DNA from: a virus
Length of the DNA stretch: 30,947 nucleotides
Strand: one strand, 5' to 3'
Virus record (IMG/VR): IMGVR_UViG_3300032182_000307
Coordinates: 1-30,947 of that record
Shown: positions 1,786 through 29,534 of the stretch, one piece after another
How the letters are laid out: every line of letters starts with the position of its first letter
How positions within the stretch are numbered: position 1 is the stretch's first letter
The notes under the pieces: model-generated
The model's database searches: none
Seen by the model: only the letters and a program-made list of their open reading frames with translations
Told to the model about the DNA's origin: nothing
Made by a program: the position numbers and the translations under genes

Positions 1786-1788
1786 GGT

Positions 1789-2871
1789 TCAAAGTTCGGC
1801 GGCAAATTCGCCTTGATTCATGAAAATAACAAAAGAATCAGAGGTGGCCGCCCCCGTAGCATCCATCACAAAATTAATGCCATTTTTGTTCAATGTGGCG
1901 TTGCTTGAAAGGGTGCTACTACCAAAGCTTCCAGTGTTTTCCCTATAGCTAAGAGAGCCATAAGTGGGCGAAGGCGTAGCTCTCATTTCAGGAATAAATG
2001 GTACAAATTGACTGCAAATTTCGTTACTAATTAGAAATTGTGCAGCCATATATCTTGGACTGCTTATGTGATAATACCTTTTACATCTAAAAAGCTCATC
2101 GGCGTAGCTTCTGTGCTCAAACGCTGTGGCGACGTTGCCTACTTCTAGTTGTGCTCCGGTCAAGTAAAATTCGTTAGAGGTGCTGTCGGCGATATTTATA
2201 GTCCCCACAGCACGATTTGCATTAGTCACAGCTGCAAACCCACTTGTGTTTAGTGTTCCACTTGTAAAGTCAGAGCCGCCACCTAACCAGTGATAGACAG
2301 CTAATTCAGAGGACTCGTCGTTGGCGAGAGCAGAAGCAGTATCCCCATCAATAGTGACTTCTTTATGCTCCCAGGTGTTAACAGTATTGACTGTATAAGT
2401 AGCGGAGACTTGCCTAGAATTACCGTCTTGAAAAAATTCCAAGATGTGAGTACCTGTCTTCGGTGATCTGACCCAAAACGAATACGTTAATTGTTTAGCA
2501 GAAGATGAACCGAAGTCTAAGTGCTGAAGATTTTGTCCTTCAATTTTTTGTCCTAATAAAATAAAATCACCCGCTGCTGGAGATGCATCCGCAGTCGTGC
2601 AATCAACCTTTATGGAATTTGAAAAACCGGCGGGAGCTTCAGTGCTTCGGCTAATACTGAAGCTGCCCATTGTATTGATAATAAATTGGAACCTATCGAG
2701 CACATATTGAGTTACTGTGGCCCCCGTTACATCCGAGCGTTGCCGGACTTGCATCGCACCATTGATTAACAGGTTGCGATTACTCAGCTGACCACCGTTA
2801 ATATCCGTAATCTTGGCATTAACACCGCCGCCACTCGGTGATTCGATATTCGTTACCTTGAGCGTCGACAT
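1789..2871 (-). CDS. Tail fiber / host-range protein, paralog C
   Basis: A 360-residue fiber protein. It begins with a short attachment segment (STLKVTNIESPSGGGVNAKI), then GNRxLLINGAMQVRQRSD near residues 31-48, a beta-rich domain of the carbohydrate-binding-like type, and TAFEHRSYADELFRCKRYY near residue 250. A unique C-terminal tip follows, ending FAAEL. Paralogs lie at 7910-8992 and 5879-7516. The start is fixed by a Shine-Dalgarno AGAGGTAA at 2875-2882, and a TATAAT box lies 21 bases before the start. The tip is the part least like its paralogs, as expected of the receptor-binding end. Fiber identity is well supported; the receptor is unknown. Confidence 0.85.
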   Translation of the reverse strand: MSTLKVTNIESPSGGGVNAKITDINGGQLSNRNLLINGAMQVRQRSDVTGATVTQYVLDRFQFIINTMGSFSISRSTEAPAGFSNSIKVDCTTADASPAAGDFILLGQKIEGQNLQHLDFGSSSAKQLTYSFWVRSPKTGTHILEFFQDGNSRQVSATYTVNTVNTWEHKEVTIDGDTASALANDESSELAVYHWLGGGSDFTSGTLNTSGFAAVTNANRAVGTINIADSTSNEFYLTGAQLEVGNVATAFEHRSYADELFRCKRYYHISSPRYMAAQFLISNEICSQFVPFIPEMRATPSPTYGSLSYRENTGSFGSSTLSSNATLNKNGINFVMDATGAATSDSFVIFMNQGEFAAEL

Positions 2872-2892
2872 CGCTTACCTCTAGTTAGATCT

Positions 2893-2898
2893 ATTATA
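2893..2898 (-). promoter_or_regulatory. Candidate -10 box (TATAAT) of fiber paralog C
   Basis: On the minus strand the context reads ACTTATAATAGATC, a perfect TATAAT ending 21 bases before the ATG and just upstream of the ribosome-binding site. No TTGACA-like -35 is visible at 16-18 bases. It matches a set of similarly placed boxes in this window. Confidence 0.5.
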
Positions 2899-2913
2899 AG
2901 TTGTTTTATTTAT

Positions 2914-3246
2914 TCAGCTAGGCCTCACAGGCCAGGTGGGGTTTGCTGGATCGCTGGTGTTAGCGGGTAGATCCCGCAGTGCCTGCCTGTATTCTGCCAT
3001 CTCTGTAGAAAGCGTCACGTCAGACAACGCCAGATAGTCAGTCTCTGCAAGACGACGGTTGCGCTCTTCACGCAGTTCCTTCATTGGAATCAACGATTGA
3101 AGACGGCTCATTTCCGCTTCAATTTCAGCAACTGAGGGTTGATCAATTTCAGTAGAGTGCCAAATCAGATTGGCAAGATCTCCACCAATGATTCCGAAAT
3201 CGGCCCCAGGGGCGAGGCTTTTGATTGCGTCAGATCTCAAGGACAT
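2914..3246 (-). CDS. Tail-fiber assembly chaperone-like protein (Phage_tail_APC type)
   Basis: A 110-residue protein. The N-terminal half contains a helical IDQPSVAEIEAEMSRLQSL segment. The C-terminal half (LREERNRRLAETDYLALSDV, then EYRQALRDLPANT and PTWPVRP) matches the pattern of the Phage_tail_APC family: an R..RN..L.ETD(W/Y) helix, YRQALRD, and a final WPxxP. Such proteins are thought to help fiber or tail assembly. It overlaps the preceding gene by TGATG, so the two are translated together. The DYQEYLEW module found in its relative at 7530-7913 is absent. Confidence 0.82.
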   Translation of the reverse strand: MSLRSDAIKSLAPGADFGIIGGDLANLIWHSTEIDQPSVAEIEAEMSRLQSLIPMKELREERNRRLAETDYLALSDVTLSTEMAEYRQALRDLPANTSDPANPTWPVRPS

Positions 3247-3860
3247 CAGCCTAGCTCCACAAGTGTGATTGTTGACGTTCCATTGACCGTGCCACCGTCA
3301 TATTGAAAAAACGCTGTACTAGAACTGGCATAATTTCTAGCCTGTGTTTTATATGTCAGCTGAGAAGTACCTGCCGACCTGCTGTCGTCATTGTAAATCA
3401 AGGCTTTATGTTCGTAAAGGTTTACCCCTGTTGAACCTGCTGATTGTGCAAACACATCAAACGGACCAGTTGCATCGCCAACAGGATCGTAGATAGTGGT
3501 TGAGCCTCTTAAAATCCTGATGCCAAGACCCGTAAAAAAGGTGGACGAAGTTAGTGAGAGGTATTGCTGGTTAACAATCACTAAAATATCACTGTCAGAC
3601 TTTAACGGCGTTATGTTTGCCGTCAAATTTGTATCCGTATAAGTAGTCCCTGTGATTTCTGCTTCTGTTGTTGTTTCTGCATAGACGACCTGAAGAATTG
3701 CTGTATCTCCAAAAACTAAAGATCCTGCAGTTGATCCGTTTCTTAAGGACTGAAAAGCACTGCCGTTGCTGGTTGGCAACGTAAGGGTGTTACTACCAGC
3801 TGCAGCTGGTGCATCGATCTCAGTAAAGCCTGAGCTGCTTCCGTTGAGTCTTAAGGTCAT
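3246..3860 (-). CDS. Fiber-associated structural protein
   Basis: A 204-residue beta-rich protein, high in Ser/Thr/Gly. The start (MTLRLNGSSSGFTEIDAPAA) and TLPTSNG resemble the short N-terminal modules used in cyanophage fiber and collar proteins, where LRLNGSTSGY..IDAPA and LPxxxGS recur. The rest (ILVIVNQQYLSLTSSTFF, then IRILRGSTTIY and YKTQARNYASSSTAFFQYDGG) looks like a jelly-roll-like tip that ends in TSTITLVELG. It overlaps the S74 fiber gene upstream by ATGA and the assembly protein downstream by TGATG, so it is part of one cassette. Specific function is not known. Confidence 0.8.
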   Translation of the reverse strand: MTLRLNGSSSGFTEIDAPAAAGSNTLTLPTSNGSAFQSLRNGSTAGSLVFGDTAILQVVYAETTTEAEITGTTYTDTNLTANITPLKSDSDILVIVNQQYLSLTSSTFFTGLGIRILRGSTTIYDPVGDATGPFDVFAQSAGSTGVNLYEHKALIYNDDSRSAGTSQLTYKTQARNYASSSTAFFQYDGGTVNGTSTITLVELG

Positions 3861-5146
3861 TCTGTTGCCTCCAATGCTGCAACTTTAGTCTCTAATGTTT
3901 CAATTCGCTCTTTTGCTTCTTTTAATGCCGCCACAAGAACTGGAACCATGTGGCTATATTCCAAAGTTTTATATGTGCCAAGCTCCTCATTCAGTGAGTT
4001 ATGCGAATCGAAATCACCTTCGCTTAATTTATCTGACTCAACTGGACATGCGTGCTCAATTTCTTTAACAACTTCTGGGAAATGCTGCTCAACTTCTTGC
4101 GCAATCAAGCCTAAAAACACACCATCACCAACAGTCGCGCGTTGATCTGTATTTTCTTTCCACCGATATTTAATCGGTTGTATATCGTCTAATTTGCTGA
4201 GAACATCGGTCGAAATAGGTTCGACAACATCCTTCAATCGAGAATCAGAACCTTGATAGGTTCCAGAAATGAAGGTACTACCGGCGCCGTAAAGAGCCCA
4301 AGAGTTAGTCCCGTCGAAGTAACCTAAAATTCCATAAACACCAGCAACTTGACCAATAGCGCCGCCGCCTGGGGAGCCTGTAGCTGCTATATAATTTCCG
4401 TAAAGGGCATAACGTGTTCCTGTGGCACTAGCTGTTGCGGAACTAACAGCGTATATGGTTTGGTGGGCTGTGCCTATAGAAGATGACTCGGCATAAATGC
4501 CAGTGTCGGCAATTCTATTACTGCCTGTATAGCGTAAATCTACTTCTGCGAAACTCGTAACTGCCTGCTTTATAGCCACCCCACCGTTATTTCCAATCCT
4601 CATCCGCTCTGTCGGGCTTGACGCACCATCTGCAGTAGTGGAAACCACTAAGCGGGTTGGCATGTCGTTTGAGCCAGGAGTGGTGTCTACAAATGCAGAT
4701 ATTCTGGCCCCTTCAACAAACTCAGCTCCATCATTCCCTTGAAAACCAATAAATCCCAATTCACTCCCATCGATAACAGCCGTATTCCCGCCTATAGATC
4801 CACTCGCTTGGTGGCCCAAAATTAAATAGCCACCCTCTCCACTATTGCTGCTAGATGAAAAAATTGCAGCTCCTCTAGCGCTGCTGGTAGTACCTTCAAT
4901 TTGAAACGCCTGACTGAGACTGGTTTGATTAAACGTATTACTACGCGCAGTAGACGTACCAACTAACAGCTGCCCCGAGCTATCAACCGTTGCCGCAGTG
5001 CTGCCGTTTGTTGAAATATTTACTTCGTTCGCACCAAAGAAAATACCGCTATCGGTATCATCACCTGTCAACGCAGGAGCCGCAGCTGTTCCATTTGTGA
5101 CTTTAAGTGGCGTGATGCCGTCTGTTCCGCTGATAGTAATTGCCAT
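3857..5146 (-). CDS. Tail fiber with C-terminal S74 intramolecular chaperone
   Basis: A 429-residue fiber. Residues 1-60 (TISGTDGITPLKVTNG, then TGIFFGANEVNIS-like text) form a short fiber N-terminus, and residues 60-295 are a beta-rich shaft and tip. From residue 300, SDSRLKDVVEPI, GLIAQEVEQHFPEVV and a terminal heptad helix (YSHMVPVLVAALKEAKERIE) identify a Peptidase_S74 / endosialidase-type chaperone domain. In that family the domain trimerises the fiber and cuts itself off just before the Ser of SDxRLK; Ser300 and Lys305 are the expected catalytic pair, which would release about 130 residues. A GAGGTAA ribosome site precedes the ATG. Confidence 0.9.
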   Translation of the reverse strand: MAITISGTDGITPLKVTNGTAAAPALTGDDTDSGIFFGANEVNISTNGSTAATVDSSGQLLVGTSTARSNTFNQTSLSQAFQIEGTTSSARGAAIFSSSSNSGEGGYLILGHQASGSIGGNTAVIDGSELGFIGFQGNDGAEFVEGARISAFVDTTPGSNDMPTRLVVSTTADGASSPTERMRIGNNGGVAIKQAVTSFAEVDLRYTGSNRIADTGIYAESSSIGTAHQTIYAVSSATASATGTRYALYGNYIAATGSPGGGAIGQVAGVYGILGYFDGTNSWALYGAGSTFISGTYQGSDSRLKDVVEPISTDVLSKLDDIQPIKYRWKENTDQRATVGDGVFLGLIAQEVEQHFPEVVKEIEHACPVESDKLSEGDFDSHNSLNEELGTYKTLEYSHMVPVLVAALKEAKERIETLETKVAALEATE

Positions 5147-5154
5147 AATTTACC

Positions 5155-5652
5155 TCAAATCACCACCCAACTTGAAGAGGACGGAATAGTAACCGTGACC
5201 CCTGAATTAATTGTAATCGGCCCCGCACTATGGGCGTTCCGGTTCGTAGGAATAGTGTAACTCGTATCTACCGTTTGCTCATTCAAGAAAAAGACGTGGT
5301 TACCTGCACCACCTGTGGCGCCCGTAAAGTTTGACGCCAGCTTTGCTTCAGTGACCGTTCCGTCAGCCGGGGTGTTGATGTCGACCGAGTCCCCTTGCAT
5401 GACTGCAAAGAAGTCAAGACCTGACCCCGGGGGCGTCGTAAATGTGATCTGACTATTGGCTACGGTGTAGTCGACACTCGGATTCTGAATTACACCACCG
5501 ACTGACACCGTGAGCTGCGAGGAACTAGCAGGAGCAACCGCAATCCCACTTACCTCGAGGTCAAATGTTGCTAGCGTTCCGTTGAAAGAACCGGAGATGT
5601 CATCGATCTCACGGTTCTGACCACGTGCTACGCCTCTACCGATGTATGGCAC
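5155..5652 (-). CDS. Short fiber-like protein with YIG/SVGGVIQ N-terminal domain
   Basis: A 165-residue protein with a GTG start, chosen because AGAGGTAG lies 6 bases upstream. Residues 1-92 (PYIGRGVARG, IDDISGSFNGTLATFDLEV, LTVSVGGVIQNPSVDYTV, then FFAVMQGD) match the N-terminal domain of the 545-residue fiber at 5879-7516, the probable virion-attachment module. The C-terminal 70 residues differ (EAKLASNFTGATGGAGNHVF and a beta-strand end SSSSWVVI) and have no receptor-binding tip of usual size. It may be a fiber adaptor or a minimal fiber. A TAGAAT box and a hairpin lie upstream. Confidence 0.8.
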   Translation of the reverse strand: MPYIGRGVARGQNREIDDISGSFNGTLATFDLEVSGIAVAPASSSQLTVSVGGVIQNPSVDYTVANSQITFTTPPGSGLDFFAVMQGDSVDINTPADGTVTEAKLASNFTGATGGAGNHVFFLNEQTVDTSYTIPTNRNAHSAGPITINSGVTVTIPSSSSWVVI

Positions 5653-5676
5653 AGTGAACTACCTCTTGATCACTCT

Positions 5677-5682
5677 ATTCTA
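5677..5682 (-). promoter_or_regulatory. Candidate -10 box (TAGAAT)
   Basis: The minus strand reads CCTTTAGAATAGAGTG, placing TAGAAT 24 bases before the GTG of the 165-residue protein. The same TTTAGAATA core occurs twice, back to back, at 12311-12341. No -35 hexamer is apparent. Confidence 0.42.
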
Positions 5683-5683
5683 A

Positions 5684-5710
5684 AGGAGTAAGTCTTTTGT
5701 CCTTACTCCT
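5684..5710 (-). terminator. Perfect 9-bp hairpin, possible terminator or attenuator
   Basis: AGGAGTAAG at 5684-5692 pairs perfectly with CTTACTCCT at 5702-5710 around a 9-base loop. On the minus strand the stem begins in the last codons of the 59-residue gene, includes its TAA, and is followed only by TTTA, so it is a weak terminator at best. It may instead limit read-through or act as a processing site between two fiber cassettes. Confidence 0.5.
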
Positions 5711-5882
5711 CTCCAGAGTCGGCAGGTTCCGGGGTGTTGCCTTCAGCGACCCACTCAAGGTACTCCTGATAGTCGGTATTGTCGGGCGCCATAGGAATTA
5801 GCGCACCATCCTCTTTACGAAGAATGCAAGGTGCTTCTTGGTTGAGCATGGAATCCCAGCACTTTTTATAGGTGTAAGTCAT
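5703..5882 (-). CDS. Small fiber-cassette protein with DYQEYLEWVAEGNTP motif (59 residues)
   Basis: Translating the minus strand from the ATG at 5882 gives 59 residues (MTYTYKKCWDSMLNQEAPCI at the start, DYQEYLEWVAEGNTPEPAD near the end, then SGEE and TAA). The ATG overlaps the fiber stop as ATGA, as in the cassette at 7910. The last 54 bases are nearly identical in DNA to the matching part of the 7530-7913 gene. It lacks the Phage_tail_APC half present there and ends just where that half would begin, so it is either a stand-alone motif protein or a shortened paralog. Confidence 0.8.
   Translation of the reverse strand: MTYTYKKCWDSMLNQEAPCILRKEDGALIPMAPDNTDYQEYLEWVAEGNTPEPADSGEE
5722..5775. 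repeat. 54-base near-identical repeat, copy 1
   Basis: Matches 7753-7806 at 53 of 54 bases by direct comparison (C/T difference at 5763 versus 7794). It encodes the DYQEYLEWVAEGNTPEPA part of two fiber-cassette proteins. A third, more diverged copy lies at about 1615-1660. The identity exceeds what the shared peptide requires. Confidence 0.85.
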
Positions 5883-7516
5883 AATTCTGCTGCAGCTTTT
5901 AAAATACCTGTTTGAGTGCCATTGTACACAGCTATCGCGCGGCCTATGGTAGTACTACCTGTAGCAACAGAAGCGTCAACTTCCACGCTGTCTATCGTCG
6001 GATATAAGACACTAAAACCAGTAAAAGTTCCTACACCATCCCCGTCATACCAATCGAATGAATTACTAGAAGTAATTGTAGGGGCTGCCCGCATTGTTAC
6101 TGGTAAAGTTAAACCTAGCCTGTTAAGAGCAGTGGTGCTACCTCCAACTCCACGCAATCTTGGCTTGCTAAATTGTTGATAATACCTTTGACACCTAGCA
6201 AGCTCATCGCTAATGCTTCTGTGCTCAAACGGTGTCGCCTTTTCACCAAGTTCATACTGAAAGCCAGTAAATTGAATGTAGTTACTGGTAGAACCCATGA
6301 GATTTATTTGATTTGTACTATTGACGCGGGATGCTCCATCAGTATTCCAAGAGGTAGTGTTTTGCCCTGAACTGCTAAAGTTTGATCCAGCGTCCAGCCA
6401 GATCTGAAATTCAATACCAGTAGTATTGTCGTCGTCAATAGCTGTAGCAGTATTGCCAATGAAGGTAATTGTTTTGTATTCCCAAGTATTGACAGACTGG
6501 ATCTCTACACTTCCTGCAAGATAAGGTGGTCCTGTGTTTACTTCTGAAGTTACTGATAAATTACCAGTCATATTTGATTTGACATAAAAAGACAAAGTTG
6601 TAGTCTTTGCGTCAGATGTACCGTAATTTAGATGCTGAAGGTCTTGCCCCTCAATGTTGTATTGAAGAATGTTGAAATTACCGGCGGAAGTCGGGGTACT
6701 AGCAGTTGTAGTTGCAACTTTAATTGATTTATTAAAACCAGCTGGTCCGTCTGATTCTTGCGTAACAGTAAACGCTCCACCCGAATCTTTGCTAAGTCTG
6801 AATCTGTCTACAGTGTAGACTGCGACAGCACCTGTGCCAATAGCAAAAGTTGTACCTCTTTGACTGATTCGACAGTCTCCGTTAATAATAAGATTTCTGC
6901 TACTCAACGCACCAGCAGTTGGGAAAGTTTCCCCGTGAATCGTCGTAGGCTCTAGATCACCATCAAGAGTAATCTTGTCATTACCTGCATCGACGACAAA
7001 TAAGTTTGCTTTTGTATCACCCTCTACACGGAAATCAACATTATCGCCATCTTCATTGAAGACAATTGCAGTAGGTCCAAAATCAGCGATCTTATTGTTG
7101 TTCGAGCTGACAGATGTGATCCCAGTACCGCCTCGGAATAGGCCAGTATCAAGGTCCTGGTTGAAGGTAATCGAGGGCGTGCCGGCATCCCCATCAGGGA
7201 ATGCATGGCCTGCTGTCACATAGTCGGCGCCAGCAAGAATGACACCGAAGAAGGACTGACCGGATGCTGGTGCCGCACTGAAGACGATGTTCGTACCAGT
7301 CAACTGGAAACCGTTAGTGCCTGTTCCATCCGGTTCCTGGATGACACCACCAACAGAAATCAGGCAGTTCTCCGAAGCAATCGGGAAGGGAACTGGTGAG
7401 ACACCACCAACTTGAAGGGCGAACGAAGTCGTAGATCCATCAAAGCTTGAGCTAATATCATCAATGCTTTGATACGTACTCTGAGCGATCTGCGGGCTCT
7501 GGCCGATATATCCCAT
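5879..7516 (-). CDS. Tail fiber / host-range protein, paralog B (longest)
   Basis: A 545-residue fiber. Residues 1-100 carry the attachment domain (GYIGQSPQIAQ, then CLISVGGVIQEP and FFGVILAG) shared with the 165-residue protein next door. Residues 105-195 form a linker with TPSITFNQDLDTGLFRGGTG and VVDAGNDKITLDGD, typical of cyanophage fiber shafts. Residues about 207-225 hold RNLIINGDCRISQRG, opening the beta-sandwich domain shared with its paralogs. TPFEHRSISDELARCQRYY begins near 428, followed by a 100-residue unique tip that ends AAAEL. The start has only a weak ribosome site, but a TACAAT box lies about 23 bases upstream. Confidence 0.87.
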   Translation of the reverse strand: MGYIGQSPQIAQSTYQSIDDISSSFDGSTTSFALQVGGVSPVPFPIASENCLISVGGVIQEPDGTGTNGFQLTGTNIVFSAAPASGQSFFGVILAGADYVTAGHAFPDGDAGTPSITFNQDLDTGLFRGGTGITSVSSNNNKIADFGPTAIVFNEDGDNVDFRVEGDTKANLFVVDAGNDKITLDGDLEPTTIHGETFPTAGALSSRNLIINGDCRISQRGTTFAIGTGAVAVYTVDRFRLSKDSGGAFTVTQESDGPAGFNKSIKVATTTASTPTSAGNFNILQYNIEGQDLQHLNYGTSDAKTTTLSFYVKSNMTGNLSVTSEVNTGPPYLAGSVEIQSVNTWEYKTITFIGNTATAIDDDNTTGIEFQIWLDAGSNFSSSGQNTTSWNTDGASRVNSTNQINLMGSTSNYIQFTGFQYELGEKATPFEHRSISDELARCQRYYQQFSKPRLRGVGGSTTALNRLGLTLPVTMRAAPTITSSNSFDWYDGDGVGTFTGFSVLYPTIDSVEVDASVATGSTTIGRAIAVYNGTQTGILKAAAEL

Positions 7517-7529
7517 GATGTAGATCTAT

Positions 7530-7913
7530 TTATTCATCTATTGTATTAGGGCCTGACGTAGAAGGCTTACGCGGCCAGACGACTGATTCCGGACCGGTCT
7601 CTGCATAGGTGGTCGGAATGTCGCGAAGGGTCTGACGATAAGCAGCCCATTGAGCCTGATCAACAGTGCAGCCAGGGATCATTGTCCAGTCTGAATCACG
7701 GAGGAGTTCATCACGTTTTAGACGTACATGCTCCCAAGTGTTAGTATCTTCAGCAGGTTCCGGGGTGTTGCCTTCAGCGACCCACTCAAGGTATTCCTGA
7801 TAGTCGCGATTACCCACATCGTATGGAAGCCAAATGATGCTCCCATCATCATTGATTTTTTTGATGACGACAGGATCGCCGCCATAAGGAGGGTTCGCAA
7901 GTTGATAGTTCAT
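7530..7913 (-). CDS. Tail-fiber assembly chaperone (fused EYLEW and APC modules)
   Basis: A 127-residue two-part protein. Residues about 35-55 hold the DYQEYLEWVAEGNTPEPAED module. The rest (RLKRDELLRDSDWTMIPGC, QWAAYRQTLRDIPTTYAE, then VVWPRKP) is a full Phage_tail_APC-type domain: R..RD.LL..DW, AYRQ.LRDIP and WPxxP are the family pattern. Its ATG overlaps the stop of fiber paralog A, which fits co-translation with the fiber it may help to assemble or attach. The other two cassettes carry only one half each, so this is the complete form. Confidence 0.88.
   Translation of the reverse strand: MNYQLANPPYGGDPVVIKKINDDGSIIWLPYDVGNRDYQEYLEWVAEGNTPEPAEDTNTWEHVRLKRDELLRDSDWTMIPGCTVDQAQWAAYRQTLRDIPTTYAETGPESVVWPRKPSTSGPNTIDE
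7753..7806. repeat. 54-base near-identical repeat, copy 2
   Basis: Second copy of the 5722-5775 sequence, one mismatch, same orientation, about 2.03 kb away. The interval between the copies contains all of fiber paralog B. Confidence 0.85.
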
Positions 7914-8992
7914 AGTTCAGCGCTAGCTTCAAGAATAGGTGCACCTGAAATTGAGGCTGCAAATAGTCCACCTGTCATGCCGGTGTCAGCGGTTGTGAGA
8001 TTTGCACCAATTTGGGTTGAAGAAACACTAAATACAGAATTTAACCCAGTTACGTTAACTGCAGCACGGCCAAATTGAGCAACGGTTCCAGGTGAAGATC
8101 TCAGACTACTAGGAGTCGTTGCCGTAGCCCGCTTCTCTACTTTAAAGAAAAAGACAACATCAACATCAGAGGTGTTGACCGTGCGTCCTGTGCAGTTACC
8201 CAATAGCTCGTAATACCTTAGGCACCTAGCAAGCTCATCGCCATAGCTCCTGTGCTCAAACGGTGTCGCGGTGTTACCGACTTCGATTTGGACGCCCGTG
8301 ATTTGCCAAGAAGCGTTTAGGGTTTCATTCAAATTAACGGTAGCTGATGTACCTCTTTTGTAGGTAGAGCCCCACGTCGTTCCTGCAGTGCCGTGATCAT
8401 TGGATCCAGTTCCAAGAGCCATTTGAACACCGAGCCCGATCCCATTAGTTGTGTTCCACGTTCCAGAAGTGTCACCAGGGACAGTGATCGTTTTACGCAC
8501 CCAAGTGCTTACTTCACTGGCTGCAATGGTGTAGGTTGTTAAAAAAGCTCGGTCAACGCCTGCGTTGAAAAAACTAATTGGATAAGTTCCGGTTACGCTT
8601 GACTTTACGTAAAAAGACATAGTAAAGGCTTTAGCGTCTGCCGTCCCAAACCCCATTTGAGCCCAGTTGTAACCCTCAATGCGATGGTCAGCTCCTACGA
8701 ACCGGTCATCACCAGATGATGTTTCAGTAGTTGTGACAGTTGTTTTGAGAGAGTGCTTAAAACCTGCAGGACTATCTGAAACTTGTTGGATAGTCGCAGC
8801 AAGCGTAGACATGTCATGCTTTTCATGAAGGAATCTGTCCACGCTATAAGCGGTTCCAGCTGAGTAAGAAATACTTGATCCACTATTTCTCTGATCTATA
8901 CACATATCACCATTGATAACCAGATTCCGATTACCAAGCTTGTCAGCAACGCTATCACCAAGCCGCTGACCATCGATATCAGTTAATGGCAT
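7910..8992 (-). CDS. Tail fiber / host-range protein, paralog A
   Basis: A 360-residue fiber with a very short N-terminus (PLTDIDGQRLGDSVADKLG), then NRNLVINGDMCIDQRNSGSS near residue 21 and a beta-rich middle. TPFEHRSYGDELARCLRYY lies near residue 243, followed by a unique tip ending EASAEL. The start is fixed by a perfect AAGGAGGT at 9001-9008, 8 bases upstream. It has the same domain plan as paralogs B and C, but the tips differ, which is what one expects of fibers with different receptors. The next gene (assembly chaperone) overlaps by ATGA. Confidence 0.87.
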   Translation of the reverse strand: MPLTDIDGQRLGDSVADKLGNRNLVINGDMCIDQRNSGSSISYSAGTAYSVDRFLHEKHDMSTLAATIQQVSDSPAGFKHSLKTTVTTTETSSGDDRFVGADHRIEGYNWAQMGFGTADAKAFTMSFYVKSSVTGTYPISFFNAGVDRAFLTTYTIAASEVSTWVRKTITVPGDTSGTWNTTNGIGLGVQMALGTGSNDHGTAGTTWGSTYKRGTSATVNLNETLNASWQITGVQIEVGNTATPFEHRSYGDELARCLRYYELLGNCTGRTVNTSDVDVVFFFKVEKRATATTPSSLRSSPGTVAQFGRAAVNVTGLNSVFSVSSTQIGANLTTADTGMTGGLFAASISGAPILEASAEL

Positions 8993-9006
8993 TATCGATT
9001 ACCTCC

Positions 9007-9348
9007 TTAGGTTTGCTCAAGGTAGCTAACAGAAAGATCCAACGCAGTGGCCGTGTCAGCACGTGCCCTCAACACATCACTGGATTCCATGATGATCTTA
9101 GAACCTGAGATGATCTCCAAAGATCCACCTCCAGGAACAGGAGCGTTCCTAATAATATAGATGTCATCACCCGTATTTGTCACAAGATAAATATCAACGT
9201 CAGCGCTGGTGCCGGTCTTGTTCGAGACCAAGATACTCAGAAGAACGTGAGTCGCACTAGCACCCGCAGTCAAGATATTAGTGGCGGTGTCAGTGATAGC
9301 CGTGGTTACCAGGCTTGACTTAGTAGCGATCTTAAAAGTGTTTGCCAT
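9007..9348 (-). CDS. Small virion structural protein, beta-sandwich type
   Basis: A 113-residue protein (MANTFKIATKSSLVTTAITD at the start, then ATHVLLSILVSNKTGTSADV and a PVPGGGSLEIISGSKIIMES segment). The pattern of alternating beta strands with a PxPGGGSLEI/G.KIVLE core is familiar from small cyanophage structural proteins found near fibers. It probably forms a small beta-sandwich on the virion or fiber base. It starts one base after the stop of the Mtd-like protein (gap of one base) and ends just before fiber paralog A. Confidence 0.75.
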   Translation of the reverse strand: MANTFKIATKSSLVTTAITDTATNILTAGASATHVLLSILVSNKTGTSADVDIYLVTNTGDDIYIIRNAPVPGGGSLEIISGSKIIMESSDVLRARADTATALDLSVSYLEQT

Positions 9349-9349
9349 A

Positions 9350-9754
9350 TCAGCCTAGAGCCACAATTAATGCAAGGTTTGATGTGTTTTCAAAGTTCCC
9401 AGTGACCGTAAGATCACCTGTAATTGAAACGTTACCTGGGATAGTTACAGCGCCTGCTGCGTCTATTGTAAGTCTAGCAACTCCACCGGTCACGAGACTA
9501 ATTTGATCCGGGCCACCACTGATAATTCCAGTGTTGGAATCAGTAGCAAACTTAAGAGCACAACTTGTTAATGAACCAAGTGAAAGTGCTGAGTTCGTTC
9601 CATCTTCTCTAAGAAGCGGGAAGCCTCCAGCCTGTACTCCATCGTGGACGACTGTACTGTTCTTATCAGTATCTACAGTGACTTCACCCGAAGCACCAGT
9701 GAAGCCTGAGTGCTGGGCTGTTGAGCCTCTGCGAAATTGTACTTGGGTTGCCAT
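9350..9754 (-). CDS. Fiber protein with Mtd-like N-terminal domain
   Basis: A 134-residue protein. Residues 1-50 (ATQVQFRRGSTAQHSGFTGA, GEVTVDTDKNSTVVHDG, GGFPLLRED) match the N-terminal module seen in the Bordetella phage Mtd protein and in many phage fibers (xQFRRGTTxxHxxFTGAxGEVTVDTDKxTVVVHDG). The rest is a short beta region (NTGIISGGPDQISLVTGGVA, then AAGAVTIPGNVSITGDLTVT) typical of fiber shafts. With no large receptor-binding tip it may be a baseplate or fiber-hub piece. No reverse transcriptase or variable repeat is present, so there is no sign of a diversity-generating element. GGATAGAG precedes the ATG. Confidence 0.82.
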   Translation of the reverse strand: MATQVQFRRGSTAQHSGFTGASGEVTVDTDKNSTVVHDGVQAGGFPLLREDGTNSALSLGSLTSCALKFATDSNTGIISGGPDQISLVTGGVARLTIDAAGAVTIPGNVSITGDLTVTGNFENTSNLALIVALG

Positions 9755-9758
9755 AACT

Positions 9759-11759
9759 CTATCCTAATGCAACTGCAATTGCGGTAGCAAAACTTTCGGT
9801 GGAGATTGTTCCATCGGTATCAGGAACAGTCATAGTTCGGGTATTACTTGTAGTAATGCCTGAACATTCGAAAGCAAGCTTTTTAGAACTGTCGCCGTTA
9901 TCGCTAATTCTGAAACTATCATCAACAAAAGTCCCGCCGGGAATCGTCGAAGCTGAAGTCAATAATGTGCCAGTTTCATCCGGCACTGTGATAGTTCGGT
10001 CGGCTCCTAGTGCTGCTGGTGTGAGCGTAACTGCGCGAGAGCTGGATCCACCCCCACGTCCGTTGATCAGGATTGCGTCTTGCGTTGAAGCCTGCTCAAA
10101 GCGTTGTCCAGTTGTATTTTGAAATGTATTTGACGCCGTGAATGTTTTAGCCCCCGAGATTGTTTCATTAACATCCGTAAGAGAGACTGTTCCTCCAGCA
10201 TTCGGTAATACAATTGTGCGGTTGGCACTCAAAGCTTCAGGTGTAAGGGTCACCGCATAAGAATTACTACCACCACCACGACCATTGATGACAACACCAT
10301 CGTTCGTCGCGGCCTGTTCAAACCTTTGACCGGATGAATTCCTGAATGTATTGTTGCCTGTAAATGTTTGGTCAGTGCCCAGGACAACGATTGTATCGTT
10401 GGCATCCTGAACGGTCAAAGTCCGAGTCGTTGATGTAGTGATTCCACTTAAAGCGAACGCCAACTGCTTCGTGTTGTCCGTGGTATTGCGGACTCTGAAG
10501 CCGCCATCATTCGTGACCACTGCGGTCGACGTCACTGATGTCAAACCAGCAAGGGTCAGTGTGGAAGAACCTAGAGATACAGCACTCGTGCCGATCGTGA
10601 TGGAGCTGTTGCTCAATGACGAGTTCGGAATACTCCCGAGGGCGAATACACCTGTGCTCGAGTTGTAACTGATTCCAGTGGAGCTGGTGACACTGAAATG
10701 AGCACGAACCTCAGCTGCGCTTGGGCCTGTATATGTGATTACACCCGTGCTGCTGTTGTAGCCAAGAGATCCATCGCCCCCAGAATCCGTAACACTGATT
10801 GCACCACGTGCTCTTGCGTCCGTGAAATAAAGATTTCCGCTCTCAGGAACAATGCCGGTATCAAGGGTGTCAGTGGTCGACTGGTTACTGGCATTGCCAA
10901 TGAAGATCTTGCCGTTGTCTAAGTTCGGTGTTGCGTTCGAGCGGCCTGGACCAAGTACAAGAATGCGTCCGTTGCTGTCTACCTTGGTGACCTTGCCGAT
11001 GTTTTGAATCTGGCTGGCCTCACCCGTCGGAGGCGTGGTCGTTAAGTCACCCGCTGTGGTGCTGATATAAACGGTATCACCAGCCGTAAAAGAGCTCGTG
11101 TCATAACCCTGAGCAACACCTGTAGCGATGACAGCACCATTGGCGTTATTGGTGATTTGCTCAGCGACAAGACCAATACAAGGCATTTTGGTCGCATCAT
11201 TGGCGTCTGCAGGAGCCACCAGAGGTCGATTACTGCCTGACGCGTACCCAACGATTGCAACTGGAGTGCCCTTGGCGAGAGTTGACCCCGTTTCATTACG
11301 TACAAGTTCAACTACATTCTCTGCTTCTTTAACTTGATAGGTGTCCCCAAGTGAAACAGTGGTCGTCACACCACGAGCATCTTCGAAATCAATGCTGCTG
11401 TTCGTTAAAGAAGAATTTGGAATACTTGCAAGGGCAAATACACCTGTAGAAGACGTATAAGTGATGCCTGTGGCGCTCGTAGCCGACAGCAAGCCTCTGA
11501 CCACGGCATCTGTGACCTGAGTAAACTCAAATGCACCTGTGGTGGAGTTATAAGTTAAGCTTCCTAATCCAGTTGCAGGACTGGGGCTGACAGTCGAAAG
11601 AGAAATCGAACCGCGAGCCCTTGCTTGAGTAAAGTATTGATTACTAGAACCTTCACTCAGATCATCCGTATCATTTCCGGCAAAATCTAATCCATCAGTC
11701 GGAGTATTGACCTCTTGAAAGAGACCAGATACTAATGCAATTGCCTTTCTAGTTGCCAT
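9759..11759 (-). CDS. Large fiber shaft protein with internal duplications
   Basis: A 666-residue protein, Ser/Thr/Gly-rich and beta-repetitive. Three kinds of duplication can be read: SSTGVFALASIPNSSLTNSS and SSTGVFALGSIPNSSLSNSS; GQRFEQAATNDGVVINGRGG and GQRFEQASTQDAILINGRGG, each followed by TLTPxALxAxRTI(V/T)xP; and LAFALSGITTSTTRTLTV with LAFECSGITTSNTRTMTV. A domain near residues 160-280 (GSTLAKGTPVAIVGYASG, then FTAGDTVYISTTAGDLTTTP) resembles the C-terminal part of the protein at 11764-12291. It is most likely a long trimeric fiber or side-tail-fiber shaft. It ends FATAIAVALG, overlapping nothing, 4 bases before the next start. Confidence 0.82.
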   Translation of the reverse strand: MATRKAIALVSGLFQEVNTPTDGLDFAGNDTDDLSEGSSNQYFTQARARGSISLSTVSPSPATGLGSLTYNSTTGAFEFTQVTDAVVRGLLSATSATGITYTSSTGVFALASIPNSSLTNSSIDFEDARGVTTTVSLGDTYQVKEAENVVELVRNETGSTLAKGTPVAIVGYASGSNRPLVAPADANDATKMPCIGLVAEQITNNANGAVIATGVAQGYDTSSFTAGDTVYISTTAGDLTTTPPTGEASQIQNIGKVTKVDSNGRILVLGPGRSNATPNLDNGKIFIGNASNQSTTDTLDTGIVPESGNLYFTDARARGAISVTDSGGDGSLGYNSSTGVITYTGPSAAEVRAHFSVTSSTGISYNSSTGVFALGSIPNSSLSNSSITIGTSAVSLGSSTLTLAGLTSVTSTAVVTNDGGFRVRNTTDNTKQLAFALSGITTSTTRTLTVQDANDTIVVLGTDQTFTGNNTFRNSSGQRFEQAATNDGVVINGRGGGSNSYAVTLTPEALSANRTIVLPNAGGTVSLTDVNETISGAKTFTASNTFQNTTGQRFEQASTQDAILINGRGGGSSSRAVTLTPAALGADRTITVPDETGTLLTSASTIPGGTFVDDSFRISDNGDSSKKLAFECSGITTSNTRTMTVPDTDGTISTESFATAIAVALG

Positions 11760-11763
11760 AATA

Positions 11764-12291
11764 TTAACTTAATAAGATCGGTGGTTCCAATTGAATGGCA
11801 AACTCTGTAGTTGAAGTGGCTTCACCGACTCTGACTACATAATTACCTGCACCAGTAGGTGCAGTCGTGGTGATCGCTCCTGCGCTTGCGGCAGAGAGGA
11901 AGTAGTGATCACCAGCATCAAGACCCGTCATCGCCTCCACGCCAGTCACCAGGACTTTCACTTCCTCACCTAAAGCTTTGGTTGTGTCTGCAATCCCAAC
12001 TACATAGGCCTTATCAAGAGTGTCGTTTGCAATAGCTTTACCTACCTGTCCGTCGCTCTGACGCATGTACAGAGCGTCACCCTGATCGACTGCTTCAAAA
12101 GTTGTAGCATTAAAGCCGACCCTGAAAGGAATAAAAGTTGGGAAACCGTCTTTAAGATCAATCAGCGCGTCGACGAGGCCACGGTAGTTCGGCGCATAAG
12201 GTGCTCGAGTCATCGTGAAACCATGTCCAGTCATCAGGTCAACAAGTACCTGTAGAGCTCCTTCTATGTTGGGCTCGTAGGCAACTGCCAT
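11764..12291 (-). CDS. Structural protein with DUF2190-like beta domain
   Basis: A 175-residue protein. The N-terminal 60 residues are helical (EGALQVLVDLMTGHGFTMTR, YRGLVDALIDLKDG), perhaps a virion-binding part. Residues about 65-175 (GFNATTFEAVDQGDALYMRQ, AYVVGIADTTKALGEEVKVL, then LDAGDHYFLSAASAGAITTT and a TGAGNYVVRVGEATS end) make a compact beta domain that recalls DUF2190-like decoration proteins and the middle of the neighbouring 666-residue fiber. A possible fiber or capsid accessory. It diverges from the plus-strand gene at 12360 across a perfect inverted repeat. Confidence 0.75.
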   Translation of the reverse strand: MAVAYEPNIEGALQVLVDLMTGHGFTMTRAPYAPNYRGLVDALIDLKDGFPTFIPFRVGFNATTFEAVDQGDALYMRQSDGQVGKAIANDTLDKAYVVGIADTTKALGEEVKVLVTGVEAMTGLDAGDHYFLSAASAGAITTTAPTGAGNYVVRVGEATSTTEFAIQLEPPILLS

Positions 12292-12310
12292 ATGACCGTA
12301 TACTTTTTCA

Positions 12311-24823: not shown

Positions 24824-26347
24824 TCAATACTCTAACTCCAATTTGCCTCTAGTCATTAGTCCATTACAAAGCCAGACCAGAGCGTCAACACAGTCATCGT
24901 GAGAGCTAACTCCAAAGTTAACAATCTCATCCTGAAGTGCCTGGAATTTCCTATATTTATTAAAGGTGATCTTCCGCTGTTCGAAGAGACCCATGATGCC
25001 ACGGAAGCGAGCAACCTTGTCTCCACGGAATCCTTTGACCGGATGCCAGTTCACGTTGTAAAGACCGTGTTCACCTTGACAGATACGTTTAAAGTCTGCC
25101 TCCAGTGATGCCTGGTAGGCCACAGCTTCTGACCAAACCTCGATACTGCTACCTGTAGGGAAATATTGATCTTTTTCTTTGTGTACAACACCCCACTCTT
25201 CCATCATCTCCATTAAGGCTTCTAATTTTTCAAGGTTTCCCATGATGCGAAGTCTCTTACAATCAATGATGTGTATCTTCCCTCCCACTCGCCCTCCCAT
25301 CACGAAGACCGTATAGTCGTTTCGTTCTCTGACACCTGCAGAAAGATCGACCCCGATTCCTAAAGTATCGAATTGAGTGGCGATTTCACCTTTGACGATC
25401 AAATCAGGAGAAAGAGAAAGTTCGCTGGTTTGAACGACCTGATTTTGGTACTGGAAAGAAAAAGCGATTGGGGCTTGGCGACGCCGGTCGCGCAAATAAT
25501 CGAGCGACCACATTTCTGGCCAATACGATTGCTCATCTCCGTTCTTGTCTACGGAAATGGCTGATTGGACGATTTGCACCCAGTTGTTGGCTGGAATGAA
25601 CGTGGAGTTATGAATGTCGTCATGGCGGAAGCGGGTGCCAAGACAGATCGCACGACCACCCTCAAACATCGTCGGAACAATAACTGAGTTCCAGTTATCT
25701 TCCATGGCTTGCCGGATATCACGGTTTTTGATGTCATCCGCACTCTTGATGGCGTCATCAATGATGCAAAGGTGTGAACGCTTCGAGGTCACCGCACCCT
25801 TGAGACCTGCACAACAGACCGTGAACTCTTCTTCACCTGCTGTCCGGATCCCGGCGAACTTCCAATCAATACTCCAATATTCATTTGAATTGATTCCCTT
25901 TGCGATCTTAACGGTGGGAAAGATCTCCTTATAAGTCTTACTCTCCTCAATGATCCTCTTGATTGCTGCGCTCTTGGGTCGTGCCACATCAACCGTGTAG
26001 GAGATGTAGAGGATTTTCAAAGGTTTTTTCGCCAATGCATGAACACCAACAGCCCAGGCTGTGTACAAACCTAAGATCGTGGATTTCGCACTACCGCGTG
26101 GCGCCAGGATATCGATATTTGGTCCACCGATACCAATTAGACATTCAGAGTCTTCACCAGTGCAAAGATACTTATGCCATTCCTTATGGTGCGTAGCAGG
26201 GGGCTTATCACCGACTACATCACAAAAATAAGCAAAATCCTTACGTGCACGTTCGATATCAATGTTCGACGTCTTCTTTACAACGCGCTGCTGAGCGGCA
26301 GCTCGTGCTGTGCGTCGATACACACTATAGATACTTGTACCTGCCAT
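24824..26347 (-). CDS. terL: Terminase large subunit
   Basis: The ATPase-nuclease motor that packages DNA into the procapsid. Numbered from an upstream TTG at 26353, the Walker A-like APRGSAKST is at 84-92, Walker B CIIDD at 196-200 and the coupling motif CLGTRF at 237-242. The RNase H-like nuclease shows D336 (GIGVDLS), E409 (VWSEAVAYQ) and D487/D490 (SSHDDCVDAL). About 507 residues is a normal length. I chose the ATG at 26347 over the TTG two codons before it. The gene lies 23 bases after the probable small subunit and 13 bases or so before the AbrB-like gene. All key residues are intact. Confidence 0.96.
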   Translation of the reverse strand: MAGTSIYSVYRRTARAAAQQRVVKKTSNIDIERARKDFAYFCDVVGDKPPATHHKEWHKYLCTGEDSECLIGIGGPNIDILAPRGSAKSTILGLYTAWAVGVHALAKKPLKILYISYTVDVARPKSAAIKRIIEESKTYKEIFPTVKIAKGINSNEYWSIDWKFAGIRTAGEEEFTVCCAGLKGAVTSKRSHLCIIDDAIKSADDIKNRDIRQAMEDNWNSVIVPTMFEGGRAICLGTRFRHDDIHNSTFIPANNWVQIVQSAISVDKNGDEQSYWPEMWSLDYLRDRRRQAPIAFSFQYQNQVVQTSELSLSPDLIVKGEIATQFDTLGIGVDLSAGVRERNDYTVFVMGGRVGGKIHIIDCKRLRIMGNLEKLEALMEMMEEWGVVHKEKDQYFPTGSSIEVWSEAVAYQASLEADFKRICQGEHGLYNVNWHPVKGFRGDKVARFRGIMGLFEQRKITFNKYRKFQALQDEIVNFGVSSHDDCVDALVWLCNGLMTRGKLELEY

Positions 26348-26370
26348 GCACAAAGCATAGCGTAAGGATC

Positions 26371-26856
26371 CTACGATTCTTCTTGCAAAATCTTAGTCCA
26401 GACGCCCATCGAGGCCTCCTGGAGTGGACCTTCAATCGGATCATCACGGAAGATCGTTAACATCTCACGAAGTGCACGATCAGCACCAGCAAGAATCAAA
26501 CCTTGCTTGTCCATCAATACCTTCTCATCATTCAACTGCTTGATCGAACCACGCAGTTCCTTCTGCATCATTGCGATGCGTGATGTACCCATATCTTGCT
26601 TCACCATCCCCATGTCGATCGCATCTCGCAACTTGGAGATGTCCATCGTCATGTGATCAATTTCCATCTCCAGAACAGCAGCAAAATCCCGCTTCTTAAA
26701 GTTCTCCGTAGACCACTCGTCACATTCGACGATTGTTCCGGTGAACCCCAGGAAACGGGCGTACAGATAGATCTGGATGGGTGTTCGGGCTCTTTTGCAA
26801 AAAGCTAGAAAGGATTCACGGTCTTTGTCGGTTAGTTCGTGAATCCAATCAATCAT
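26371..26856 (-). CDS. Probable terminase small subunit
   Basis: A 161-residue, nearly all-helical protein directly upstream of terL. The N-terminal half (LTDKDRESFLAFCKRARTPI, QIYLYARFLGFTGTIVECDE) could hold a helix-turn-helix for DNA recognition. The second half is a long charged helix (AAVLEMEIDHMTMDISKLRD, MMQKELRGSIKQLNDEKVLM) suited to the ring oligomer of small terminases, ending in a short linker (DDPIEGPLQEASMGVWTKIL). The name is from position and fold type, not a fixed motif. It overlaps the preceding repeat-protein gene as ATGA. Confidence 0.7.
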   Translation of the reverse strand: MIDWIHELTDKDRESFLAFCKRARTPIQIYLYARFLGFTGTIVECDEWSTENFKKRDFAAVLEMEIDHMTMDISKLRDAIDMGMVKQDMGTSRIAMMQKELRGSIKQLNDEKVLMDKQGLILAGADRALREMLTIFRDDPIEGPLQEASMGVWTKILQEES

Positions 26857-27467
26857 GTCCGATATTGGCTTTGCGCCTGCTCGTAATCCCTGTTCTCTTT
26901 ATAGCGCCGGAACATCTCTGCTTGCAACGCAGTAGCACGTTGTTCTTCTGCTGTTTTTCCGACGGTCTTCCGTTGCTCTTCACCAGTAGTACGGACCGTT
27001 GCACGTTCTTCTTGACCCCTGGTTTGCGTGGTCAGACGTTCCTGTGCACCAGTGGTCTCGATCGCTCTGCGCTGCTCAGTACCACGGGTCTGGATCAGAC
27101 CAGTCTCAATCTGACCGGCTTGTTCTTGCGTGAGCCGAGTTTGGCGACCAGTTTCACCAATTGTGGCGCGTTGCTCCTGACCCCGGACCCGGGTCAACCC
27201 GGTCTCGATCTCACCAGCTTGCTTCTGCGTTAATCGCGTTTCGGCACCAGTCGCTTGAATACGACGGATGTCCTGGCCAGCGAAGAACTCAGCATTCGTA
27301 CGGTCGAGCTGAGCTCCAAGCTCCATGTTCAAGCGGGATTGCTTTGCACTCGCCTCATTCAACGCAATTTGCGTCGATAAAGACTGTGTCGGAACAGGAG
27401 TAGGCTTCGGCGGCGGTGGGGCCGGAACGTACTTGACCTTTGTCTTTTTCTTCTTTTTACCGCCCAT
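26853..27467 (-). CDS. Protein of ten tandem 11-residue repeats
   Basis: A 204-residue protein. It starts with poly-Lys and Pro-rich text (MGGKKKKKTKVKYVPAPPPP). From about residue 73 to 182 the sequence divides without gaps into ten 11-residue units, such as TGAETRLTQKQ, AGEIETGLTRV, RGQEQRATIGE, TGRQTRLTQEQ and TGEEQRKTVGK, with small residues at positions 1-2 and Arg at position 6 in most. Every third unit is most alike, giving a 33-residue higher period. Hendecad repeats form straight or right-handed helices, as in LEA proteins, synuclein-like and apolipoprotein-like membrane-binding helices. The end is QAEMFRRYKENRDYEQAQSQ. It precedes the small terminase; perhaps an internal virion protein. 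No family recognised. Confidence 0.75.
   Translation of the reverse strand: MGGKKKKKTKVKYVPAPPPPKPTPVPTQSLSTQIALNEASAKQSRLNMELGAQLDRTNAEFFAGQDIRRIQATGAETRLTQKQAGEIETGLTRVRGQEQRATIGETGRQTRLTQEQAGQIETGLIQTRGTEQRRAIETTGAQERLTTQTRGQEERATVRTTGEEQRKTVGKTAEEQRATALQAEMFRRYKENRDYEQAQSQYRT
26922..27251 (-). repeat. 11-residue (33-base) tandem coding repeat
   Basis: The DNA that codes for the ten hendecad units. The 33-residue (99-base) superrepeat is visible in DNA: stretches such as GTCTC.ATCT.ACC.GCTTG recur on the plus strand near 27100 and 27200 with moderate divergence, so the array is not a recent expansion. Confidence 0.7.
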
Positions 27468-27496: not shown

Positions 27497-28162
27497 TTAG
27501 CCAAACCGGCGACCGGTTCCTAATGAACCAAACTGATTAGCGGCTTGCTGTTGCGTGGCGATTGCCATTGCTTCCTTGAGGAACGCATCAGCTGCACCAG
27601 TCATCTGCTGCTGCTTCGAAGCCATGATCGCTTGCTGCGCCAGGGGCTGCTGTTGCTTGAAGGCTAAGAAGTCCTTACTTGCAGCGAGAGCTCGAGAGGT
27701 TGCACGTGCACCAGCCGCATCCAAGATTGGATAAAGAGCCTGAGCTTGCTTCACAGACTGTTCGGTGCTGATATCACCTGAAGTCCTGAGAAGATCTTTC
27801 AAGAGCTCAGCATTGGCTGCACCAATCTCCAAATCGCGGTCAAGTGTCGTATCAAATACTTCTTGGTCCTCTCCCTTAGTCTCAGTTTTCTTTGTCTCGG
27901 CTTGATCGGCGACTAATGCGCCGGCTGCTTGCTTCAGAAGATCGTAATTAGACTGCCGTTGCTGAAGGAGATCTTCTTCAGATAGCGCAGGTTTATACAC
28001 ACCCAAGAAATCACCCACTTGCTCCAGGAGGTTCGTAGGCCCTGCTTTCTTCCCTAAGGTCGAGGTGTATCCCTCGGGGAAAAAACTCGTCCCCCGAAGC
28101 ATATCCTCATACTCAAGGTTCTTCTTGAGAAAATCCTCAGATCTTTGACGAATTGTTGTCAT
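27497..28162 (-). CDS. Helical Ala/Gln-rich probable internal virion protein
   Basis: A 221-residue helical protein (TTIRQRSEDFLKKNLEYEDM, SEEDLLQQRQSNYDLLKQAA-type text, then a Lys/Thr/Glu stretch KKTETKGEDQ). The C-terminal half is Ala/Gln-rich (ALAASKDFLAFKQQQPLAQQ, AIMASKQQQMTGAADAFLKE). No membrane segment or enzyme motif. It forms one run with the Gly-rich proteins upstream (one-base gap) and the repeat protein downstream, which suggests a shared structure. An ejection-protein role is a guess from composition and order. Confidence 0.68.
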   Translation of the reverse strand: MTTIRQRSEDFLKKNLEYEDMLRGTSFFPEGYTSTLGKKAGPTNLLEQVGDFLGVYKPALSEEDLLQQRQSNYDLLKQAAGALVADQAETKKTETKGEDQEVFDTTLDRDLEIGAANAELLKDLLRTSGDISTEQSVKQAQALYPILDAAGARATSRALAASKDFLAFKQQQPLAQQAIMASKQQQMTGAADAFLKEAMAIATQQQAANQFGSLGTGRRFG

Positions 28163-28163
28163 A

Positions 28164-28940
28164 TCACTGGTATTGGTATTGGCGGGTCAGAGCACCACCG
28201 GCTTGTTGCAGTGCGCCGAGACCAGCCTGCAGACCAGCGGTTTGAGCAGCCTGTTGCATTGCAGCGCGGGTTTGGATGTTCTGGCGGATGCCAGCACCAG
28301 CCATCTGACGCTCGAACTCTTTCTTGGAGCGGGCCTCAGAAGCTGCCTCAATCTCGGGGAGCAGAGTGCGGAGCACATCACGCTGGGTCTGTGCATCCTT
28401 CAGAGTTTGAAGACGCTGGCCCATGCCTGCGGGTCCAAGGACATCGGTCGGGCTGCCATAAGGATCAGTCGGTCCGTACTGGCCCATGCCAGGAGGCAGT
28501 GCGGCACCACCGTAGACGGGCTTACCGTCAGCGGTGTAACCGATAATGCCCGCTGCGGATTGACCGAGATTGCCAACGGCTCCGGTGGCGGCACCAGTGA
28601 GACCGCCTACAAGGCCACCCGCCATTCGTCCTGCGACAGGAGCAACAGCTGATGCTGCCAGAGGCACTAGTGCAGCGCCGATTTGCTTTGCTGCCAGAGG
28701 AGTTCCTTTAATGCCGGCCAAAGAAGCTAAGCCTGGAGCAGCTTTTGCAGTGGCAGCCATCGGAGCGCCTAATTTACCGAGACCAAAACGGCCTAATCCA
28801 TATCCAGCACCGGCGCCTAAGAGACCTCCCATTAGGCCGCCTTCTTTAGCACCTTCAGTAAAGCCAGTCGCGGCAGTAAGGTAAGGCAGAGCTTGCATCG
28901 CCAAGCGCCCAGCGCCAGCAACTAAAGGAACAACAGCCAT
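28164..28940 (-). CDS. Gly/Ala-rich hydrophobic probable virion or ejection protein
   Basis: A 258-residue protein. Residues 1-130 are hydrophobic with small-residue zippers (VVPLVAGAGRLAMQALPYLT, GGLMGGLLGAGAGYGLGRFG, GGLVGGLTGAATGAVGNLGQ), the pattern of peptides that pack in or cross membranes. Residues 140-258 are soluble and helical (PPGMGQYGPTDPYGSPTDVL, AGMGQRLQTLKDAQTQRDVL, QQAAQTAGLQAGLGALQQAG). Such two-part proteins are known among phage DNA-ejection or pilot proteins, which is the basis of the suggestion. No family recognised. Confidence 0.7.
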   Translation of the reverse strand: MAVVPLVAGAGRLAMQALPYLTAATGFTEGAKEGGLMGGLLGAGAGYGLGRFGLGKLGAPMAATAKAAPGLASLAGIKGTPLAAKQIGAALVPLAASAVAPVAGRMAGGLVGGLTGAATGAVGNLGQSAAGIIGYTADGKPVYGGAALPPGMGQYGPTDPYGSPTDVLGPAGMGQRLQTLKDAQTQRDVLRTLLPEIEAASEARSKKEFERQMAGAGIRQNIQTRAAMQQAAQTAGLQAGLGALQQAGGALTRQYQYQ

Positions 28941-28997: not shown

Positions 28998-29534
28998 CTA
29001 ACCAAGGGCGCCAGCGCCCGCGCCAATTACAGCGCCAATCGGACCACCAGCAGCAAATCCTTTCAAGCCACCCATCAGCGCACCGCCGATTCTTCCACCA
29101 GCGCCTTTGCTATAGGACCCTTCGTATTCAGCGAAATCAGGCTCTCGGGTCGGGGTGTACAGGAACATGTCATCACCCATCGACTGGATAGACCCTACTC
29201 CCTTTTTATCTTTGTCTTGGTTCTGGCTATTAATGTAATTAGCCATTGCATCACCGGCCAACTGCGTACCTGATTTCTTACCACCGCCCAAGATCGATCC
29301 AAACATGCCAGCCATGCGAGTGGCTGAAGCACGTGACTCATCACTGGGATTGAAGAAGCTTCCGGGTTTCCCAATGCCGAAACCACTAGAAGTCTTGCCG
29401 CCAAACGGGTTGTAGTCAATGTTGCCTGCTTTACCGCTCAGGACATCGCTGGGGCTAAATCCACCGACTTTTCCGCCGCCACCGAAAAGGTCAGCTGAAT
29501 TAAGTCCGCTTTTAAGTGAAGTAGAAAAAGGCAT
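28998..29534 (-). CDS. Gly-rich hypothetical protein with C-terminal glycine zipper
   Basis: A 178-residue protein, Gly/Ser/Lys-rich (STSLKSGLNSADLFGGGGKV, NPFGGKTSSGFGIGKPGSFF), with a short soluble stretch (YINSQNQDKDKKGVGSIQSM, FLYTPTREPDFAEYEGSYSK). The last 30 residues (GGALMGGLKGFAAGGPIGAV IGAGAGALG-type text) are a glycine zipper that could insert in a membrane. Together with the two neighbours it makes a set of three zipper-bearing proteins. Function unknown; perhaps part of a DNA-delivery conduit. Confidence 0.68.
   Translation of the reverse strand: MPFSTSLKSGLNSADLFGGGGKVGGFSPSDVLSGKAGNIDYNPFGGKTSSGFGIGKPGSFFNPSDESRASATRMAGMFGSILGGGKKSGTQLAGDAMANYINSQNQDKDKKGVGSIQSMGDDMFLYTPTREPDFAEYEGSYSKGAGGRIGGALMGGLKGFAAGGPIGAVIGAGAGALG

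Follow-up and report, generated by a model that had tools for sequence, protein, structure and literature searches.

Genes at the locus

The window analyzed here is a stretch of 30,947 nucleotides, positions 1 to 30,947 of the IMG/VR virus record IMGVR_UViG_3300032182_000307. Details of the gene of interest, which we refer to as the hendecad-rod gene (and to its product as the rod), are given in Table 1 together with those of its neighbors.

Table 1. The hendecad-rod gene, its parts and the surrounding genes (positions in the window).
Feature	Positions	Strand	Details
Terminase large subunit (TerL)	24824..26353	minus	phrog_38, E 2.7e-79
161-aa gene	26371..26856	minus	strongly conserved; modeled as all-helical; shares 4 bases with the end of the rod gene
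Hendecad-rod gene	26853..27467	minus	204 aa, ATG start, stop included
Conserved C-terminal module, residues 183–204 (AEMFRRYKENRDYEQAQSQYRT)	26856..26921	minus	common to S-EIV1 82-aa protein
Ten-hendecad array, residues 73–182	26922..27251	minus	consensus T/R/A-G-x-E/Q-E/Q-R-L/A-T-I-x-x
Conserved N-terminal helix, residues 29–72 (LNMELGAQLDRTN, EFFAGQDIRR)	27252..27383	minus	four units, in register with the array
Lys/Pro-rich head, residues 1–27 (MGGKKKKKTKVKYVPAPPPPKPTPVPT)	27387..27467	minus	no structure predicted
221-aa neighbor	27497..28162	minus	fast-evolving, without family match
258-aa neighbor	28164..28940	minus	Gly-zipper-enriched, upstream in many loci, always with an aromatic QYQY-like tail
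178-aa neighbor	28998..29534	minus	Gly-zipper-enriched

An alignment of the rod with its relatives shows a variable array between ends that are invariant or nearly so. The N-terminal helix has invariant columns and keeps a constant spacing in relatives. The Pro-rich head differs in length by single residues from one relative to another, which means that small insertions and deletions do happen in this gene, only not in the helix.

The order rod gene, 161-aa gene, large terminase holds in nearly all loci examined, and in many loci the rod gene is preceded by the 258-aa or the 221-aa gene. The rod evolves with this variable upstream cluster; the packaging genes, by contrast, are conserved. The first-pass annotation had described the neighbors as glycine-zipper proteins: this applies to the 258-aa and 178-aa proteins (shuffle fractions 0.012 and 0.022), but not to those of 221, 179, 148 and 130 aa. 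PHROGs returned no named ejection family for the 258-aa or the 221-aa neighbor. The 161-aa protein appears to resemble a small terminase subunit solely in position and predicted layout: no meaningful PDB fold match to its model was found, nor any family or fold match to small terminase. Taken together, the gene order, the Gly-rich neighbors, the podoviral annotation (see below) and an 87-kb relative in which no ORF has the size of a tape measure gene support the placement of the rod beside candidate DNA-delivery proteins.

An unbroken array of hendecads

Ten units of 11 residues follow one another without a gap at residues 73–182, exactly where the first-pass annotation had put them: on the minus strand, the codon of residue 73 begins at 27251 and that of residue 182 ends at 26922. 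Residue identity within the array is 28% at a lag of 11, compared with a mean of 12.5% and a maximum of 24% among 5000 composition shuffles; nucleotide identity is 55% at a lag of 99 as against 26–29% at three bases either side. Residues 29–204 can all be placed in this register (16 × 11 residues), and the Arg at position 6 is also found in the flanking units 40–50, 51–61 and 183–193. A higher order of 33 residues had also been claimed. It is real locally, with a lag-33 residue identity of 49% in the window array, but as a rule for the family it was rejected, given that relatives fall into modulo-33 classes of 45, 33 and 32.

Array length and phase among relatives

Relatives of the rod were fetched from IMG/VR using conserved peptides of the ends and of the units, an approach that misses very divergent relatives and those lacking the ends. 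The 336 long-form and 540 short-form matches do not bear out the view that an 11-residue array of this kind is a rarity, at least inside its own lineage. All long-form relatives are uncultured contigs. In 205/205 loci the two anchors LDRTN and RRYKE are separated by a spacing of 0 modulo 11; as these loci include some fetched twice from one contig, distinct counts were made after collapsing by sequence, which left 117 distinct arrays ranging from 5 to 40 units. For a second pair of anchors, spacing was a multiple of 11 in all 110 distinct proteins. Homologs that break the 11-residue phase, which the first-pass annotation had named as evidence that would count against the idea, number zero among the 205 loci and 117 distinct arrays.

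This regularity has persisted through frequent change. Unordered parsimony on a 101-tip tree of the downstream 161-aa gene gives at least 68 changes in array length, a count that recombination could inflate. Adjacent units have a median DNA identity of ∼42%; the phase has thus outlasted the divergence of the units. Multiples of 11 would nonetheless also arise from unit-sized duplication by itself. The window and loci L005/L006 have TerL sequences that are 99% identical, yet their arrays differ by five units. Array length shows no correlation with the lengths of the nearest genes (221, 258 and 161 aa). Nominal correlations with the lengths of the portal, 273-aa and 144-aa genes (nine genes compared, uncorrected for kinship) were not used. 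The longest form, ∼46 units with flanks, would approach 76 nm if straight, and if kept straight might exceed the room inside the head.

Lineage, host and Synechococcus phage S-EIV1

Among annotated phage records a related terminase was found only in Synechococcus phage S-EIV1, which is listed among the Podoviridae (PMC9382816). The S-EIV1 protein AHV82216.1 (82 aa, hypothetical) is a short form of the rod: it has the C-terminal module together with two hendecads in register, and like the window rod it stands before the 161-aa gene and TerL, but its N-terminus is different and the long array is absent. In S-EIV1 three small genes in a row precede the 161-aa gene (L002:2483-3072); the first and third, the latter of which is the short rod form, have a common N-terminus resembling MTSSVP-GQ. 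A further S-EIV1 protein, AHV82213.1 (L002:1559-2437), starts with MGGKKVSYTPPPP, which is similar to the Lys/Pro head of the rod. Since such a head occurs here without the array, it looks like a module that has been shuffled.

The 87-kb long-form relative carries a psbA-like gene (L298-L302, G001:80164-81252), recognized by its N-terminal sequence. Given psbA in one long-form relative and the S-EIV1 isolate, we infer that these are cyanophages with cyanobacterial hosts. Two long-form relatives (L083 and L084) were assigned to a metagenome bin (QQUU01) that bears the name Bacteroidetes. In view of psbA in the lineage, both are probably viral contigs that were grouped with a bacterium during binning.

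Predicted structure and helix faces

Structure prediction of the monomer, suggested in the first-pass annotation, gave a single unbroken helix from residue 28 to 203 (AlphaFold2, 54-sequence alignment, mean pLDDT 87), with block pLDDT of at least 90 from about residue 41 to 190. The pTM of 0.35 is as expected for a lone rod. At 1.5 Å per residue the predicted helix would be ∼26 nm long. The notion of a long, straight hendecad helix is thereby backed by the model and by the strict conservation of phase.

The family consensus of the repeat is T/R/A at position 1, G at 2 (82%), E/Q at 4 (88%), R at 6 (89%), L/A at 7, T/G at 8 and I at 9; position 9 holds a large hydrophobic residue in 52% of units, with Ile at 35%. 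On an 11/3 wheel Ile9 and Leu7 lie ∼164 degrees apart, and because of this the one-sided hydrophobic component is nearly gone in the family average: its amplitude is 0.04, the smallest of five components, as against 0.17 for the two-sided component. In the window array alone the two-sided signal is marginal (shuffle fraction 0.0545) and the one-sided amplitude is 0.118 (shuffle fraction 0.078), neither being significant. No 19-residue window of the rod protein has a Kyte-Doolittle value above 0. Weak stripes on opposite sides are compatible with helices that touch a neighbor on either side, which does not by itself prove a barrel.

Comparison with known systems

The rod belongs to none of the families tested. 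In PHROGs, phrog_13568 (without function) matched 7/54 members with a best E of 2.3e-4, and Pfam gave marginal matches, neither search yielding anything usable. A tblastn search in annotated phages returned no match to the rod, although S-EIV1 has the short form, and Foldseek with the rod model returned no PDB match and four weak viral ones. A profile of the rod had no match up to E 1 among all PDB chain sequences; homology to H of phiX174 was thus not found, nor was homology to T7 gp14/15/16 or P22 gp7/16/20 in Pfam, PHROGs or the PDB profile searches. A tail tape measure protein was considered and rejected: the rod has 204 residues, and no ORF in the 87-kb relative exceeds 910 aa.

In the literature on hendecad or 11-residue phage proteins, phiX174 H was the sole phage case found. 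Its DNA pilot tube (PDB 4JPP) has three hendecads followed by heptads and a lumen lined by amide and guanidinium groups; the helices pack as a barrel, with Gln, Asn and Arg inward, that takes DNA across the envelope (PMC7354561). Both are phage helices with hendecads, the rod having ten exact units in a single predicted helix. H, however, belongs to a microvirus with ssDNA and has three hendecads, in contrast to 5–40 in a tailed dsDNA phage, and the rod has been modeled as a monomer. Arg at position 6 and Gln/Glu at positions 4 and 5 would be compatible with an amide/guanidinium lumen. By analogy, the H tube may be taken as the nearest mechanistic model among the papers found.

By gene context the nearest system is that of the ejection proteins of T7 (gp14-gp15-gp16) and P22 (gp7-gp16-gp20), multi-gene sets with which short-tailed phages build a conduit (PMC8954989). 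The likeness would lie in a cluster of Gly-rich or helical genes in a short-tailed phage; observed here were the two Gly-zipper-enriched neighbors, the absence of a tape-measure-size ORF from the 87-kb relative and the position of S-EIV1 in the Podoviridae; a hendecad array is not named for the T7 and P22 proteins (PMC8954989). The undecad coiled coils of NadA (PMC6191539) share the 11-residue coiled-coil principle, but NadA is an adhesin of the bacterial surface rather than a phage protein and is not known to be related to the rod in sequence.

Possible roles of the rod

We favor, with a probability of roughly 0.4, the view that the protein is a long α-helical rod of the virion or ejection module in a lineage of short-tailed cyanophages and forms a helical bundle of variable length. 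We infer for it a place in the virion, oligomerization, a geometry and a role in DNA delivery as follows. The fixed end modules would anchor the rod, and the array between them would set its length. A period of 11 residues (three turns) would give straight helices packed side by side in parallel, by way of two opposite stripes, one formed by Ile9 together with Gly2/Arg6 and the other by Leu/Ala7 together with Glu4. Such helices would assemble into a bundle, or into an open barrel, and this would span or line the route by which DNA crosses the cell envelope; because every helix in the bundle must keep register, only whole units would be gained or lost. The conduit may possibly be like that of phiX174 H. 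That a tailed cyanophage lineage independently evolved an H-like, all-hendecad barrel that conducts dsDNA through the envelope and can be adjusted in length by whole three-turn steps is doubtful.

There is evidence against a bundle. Large hydrophobic residues number ∼1.6 per 11 residues, fewer than one would expect of a stable bundle, and Gly and Thr are abundant in the array. In addition, two units suffice in S-EIV1-like phages, and the five-unit difference between near-identical phages is difficult to reconcile with fixed structural dimensions. These last two facts mean that length is not critical to a fixed structure, and they make a strong rival of the idea that the rod is a spacer or tether, in the virion or in assembly, linking two partners at its end modules without any tube; end faces that need angular register would tolerate only whole three-turn units. 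Conserved ends, a middle whose length is free from 2 to 40 units and the missing correlation with the nearest genes all agree with a spacer. Yet a flexible tether has no need of strict phase, and a lone rod consisting of a polar helix with Gly in it would probably lack stability; we regard this explanation as possible, if on balance unlikely.

The bundle also has to be weighed against three further roles. The 161-aa gene, followed by TerL, comes immediately after the rod gene and in the window overlaps it by four bases, and the 161-aa model consists of small helices and a coiled coil, an arrangement common among small terminase subunits. The rod might thus act with these two proteins in filling the head rather than in infection, and be absent from mature virions. 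The missing match of the 161-aa protein to small terminase argues against such a packaging or assembly factor, as does the evolution of the rod, which goes with the upstream cluster and not with the conserved packaging genes, and we consider this role quite improbable. Periodicity of 11 residues and a polar composition rich in Thr, Gly, Glu and Gln recall the 11-mers of apolipoproteins and synuclein, and the first-pass annotation had entertained a lipid-binding amphipathic helix coating the inner membrane during injection. The near-absence of a one-sided hydrophobic component, the opposed positions of Ile9 and Leu7, the lack of Lys-rich interfacial borders and the hydropathy profile all speak against it and render it very unlikely. 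Repeat number that varies between close relatives would also suit the shaft of an external fiber or whisker, but here conservation is highest at the two ends, there is no variable receptor-binding tip and the gene lies apart from the tail-fiber-like genes at 578-12300; of the roles weighed, we give this one the least credence.

The rod family comprises natural variants with 5 to 40 helical units of equal length, whose phase has been kept over dozens of length changes; it is hence a clean system for asking why the phase of a helix is conserved. The lineage is one of widespread cyanophages with one cultured isolate found, and the rod is a candidate part of an uncharacterized DNA-delivery apparatus. 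As S-EIV1 is in culture, presence in the virion is directly testable.

Aromatic C-termini

The C-terminus of the rod has an aromatic residue within the last three positions in 116/116 distinct relatives, the ending being mostly QYRT, QYRA or QYRS. The 258-aa neighbor ends aromatic in 56/56 instances (mostly YQYQ) and TerL in 154/154 (mostly LEY), unlike most other head genes, where the figure is 0%. These endings may represent a tail signal common to the rod, the 258-aa protein and TerL.
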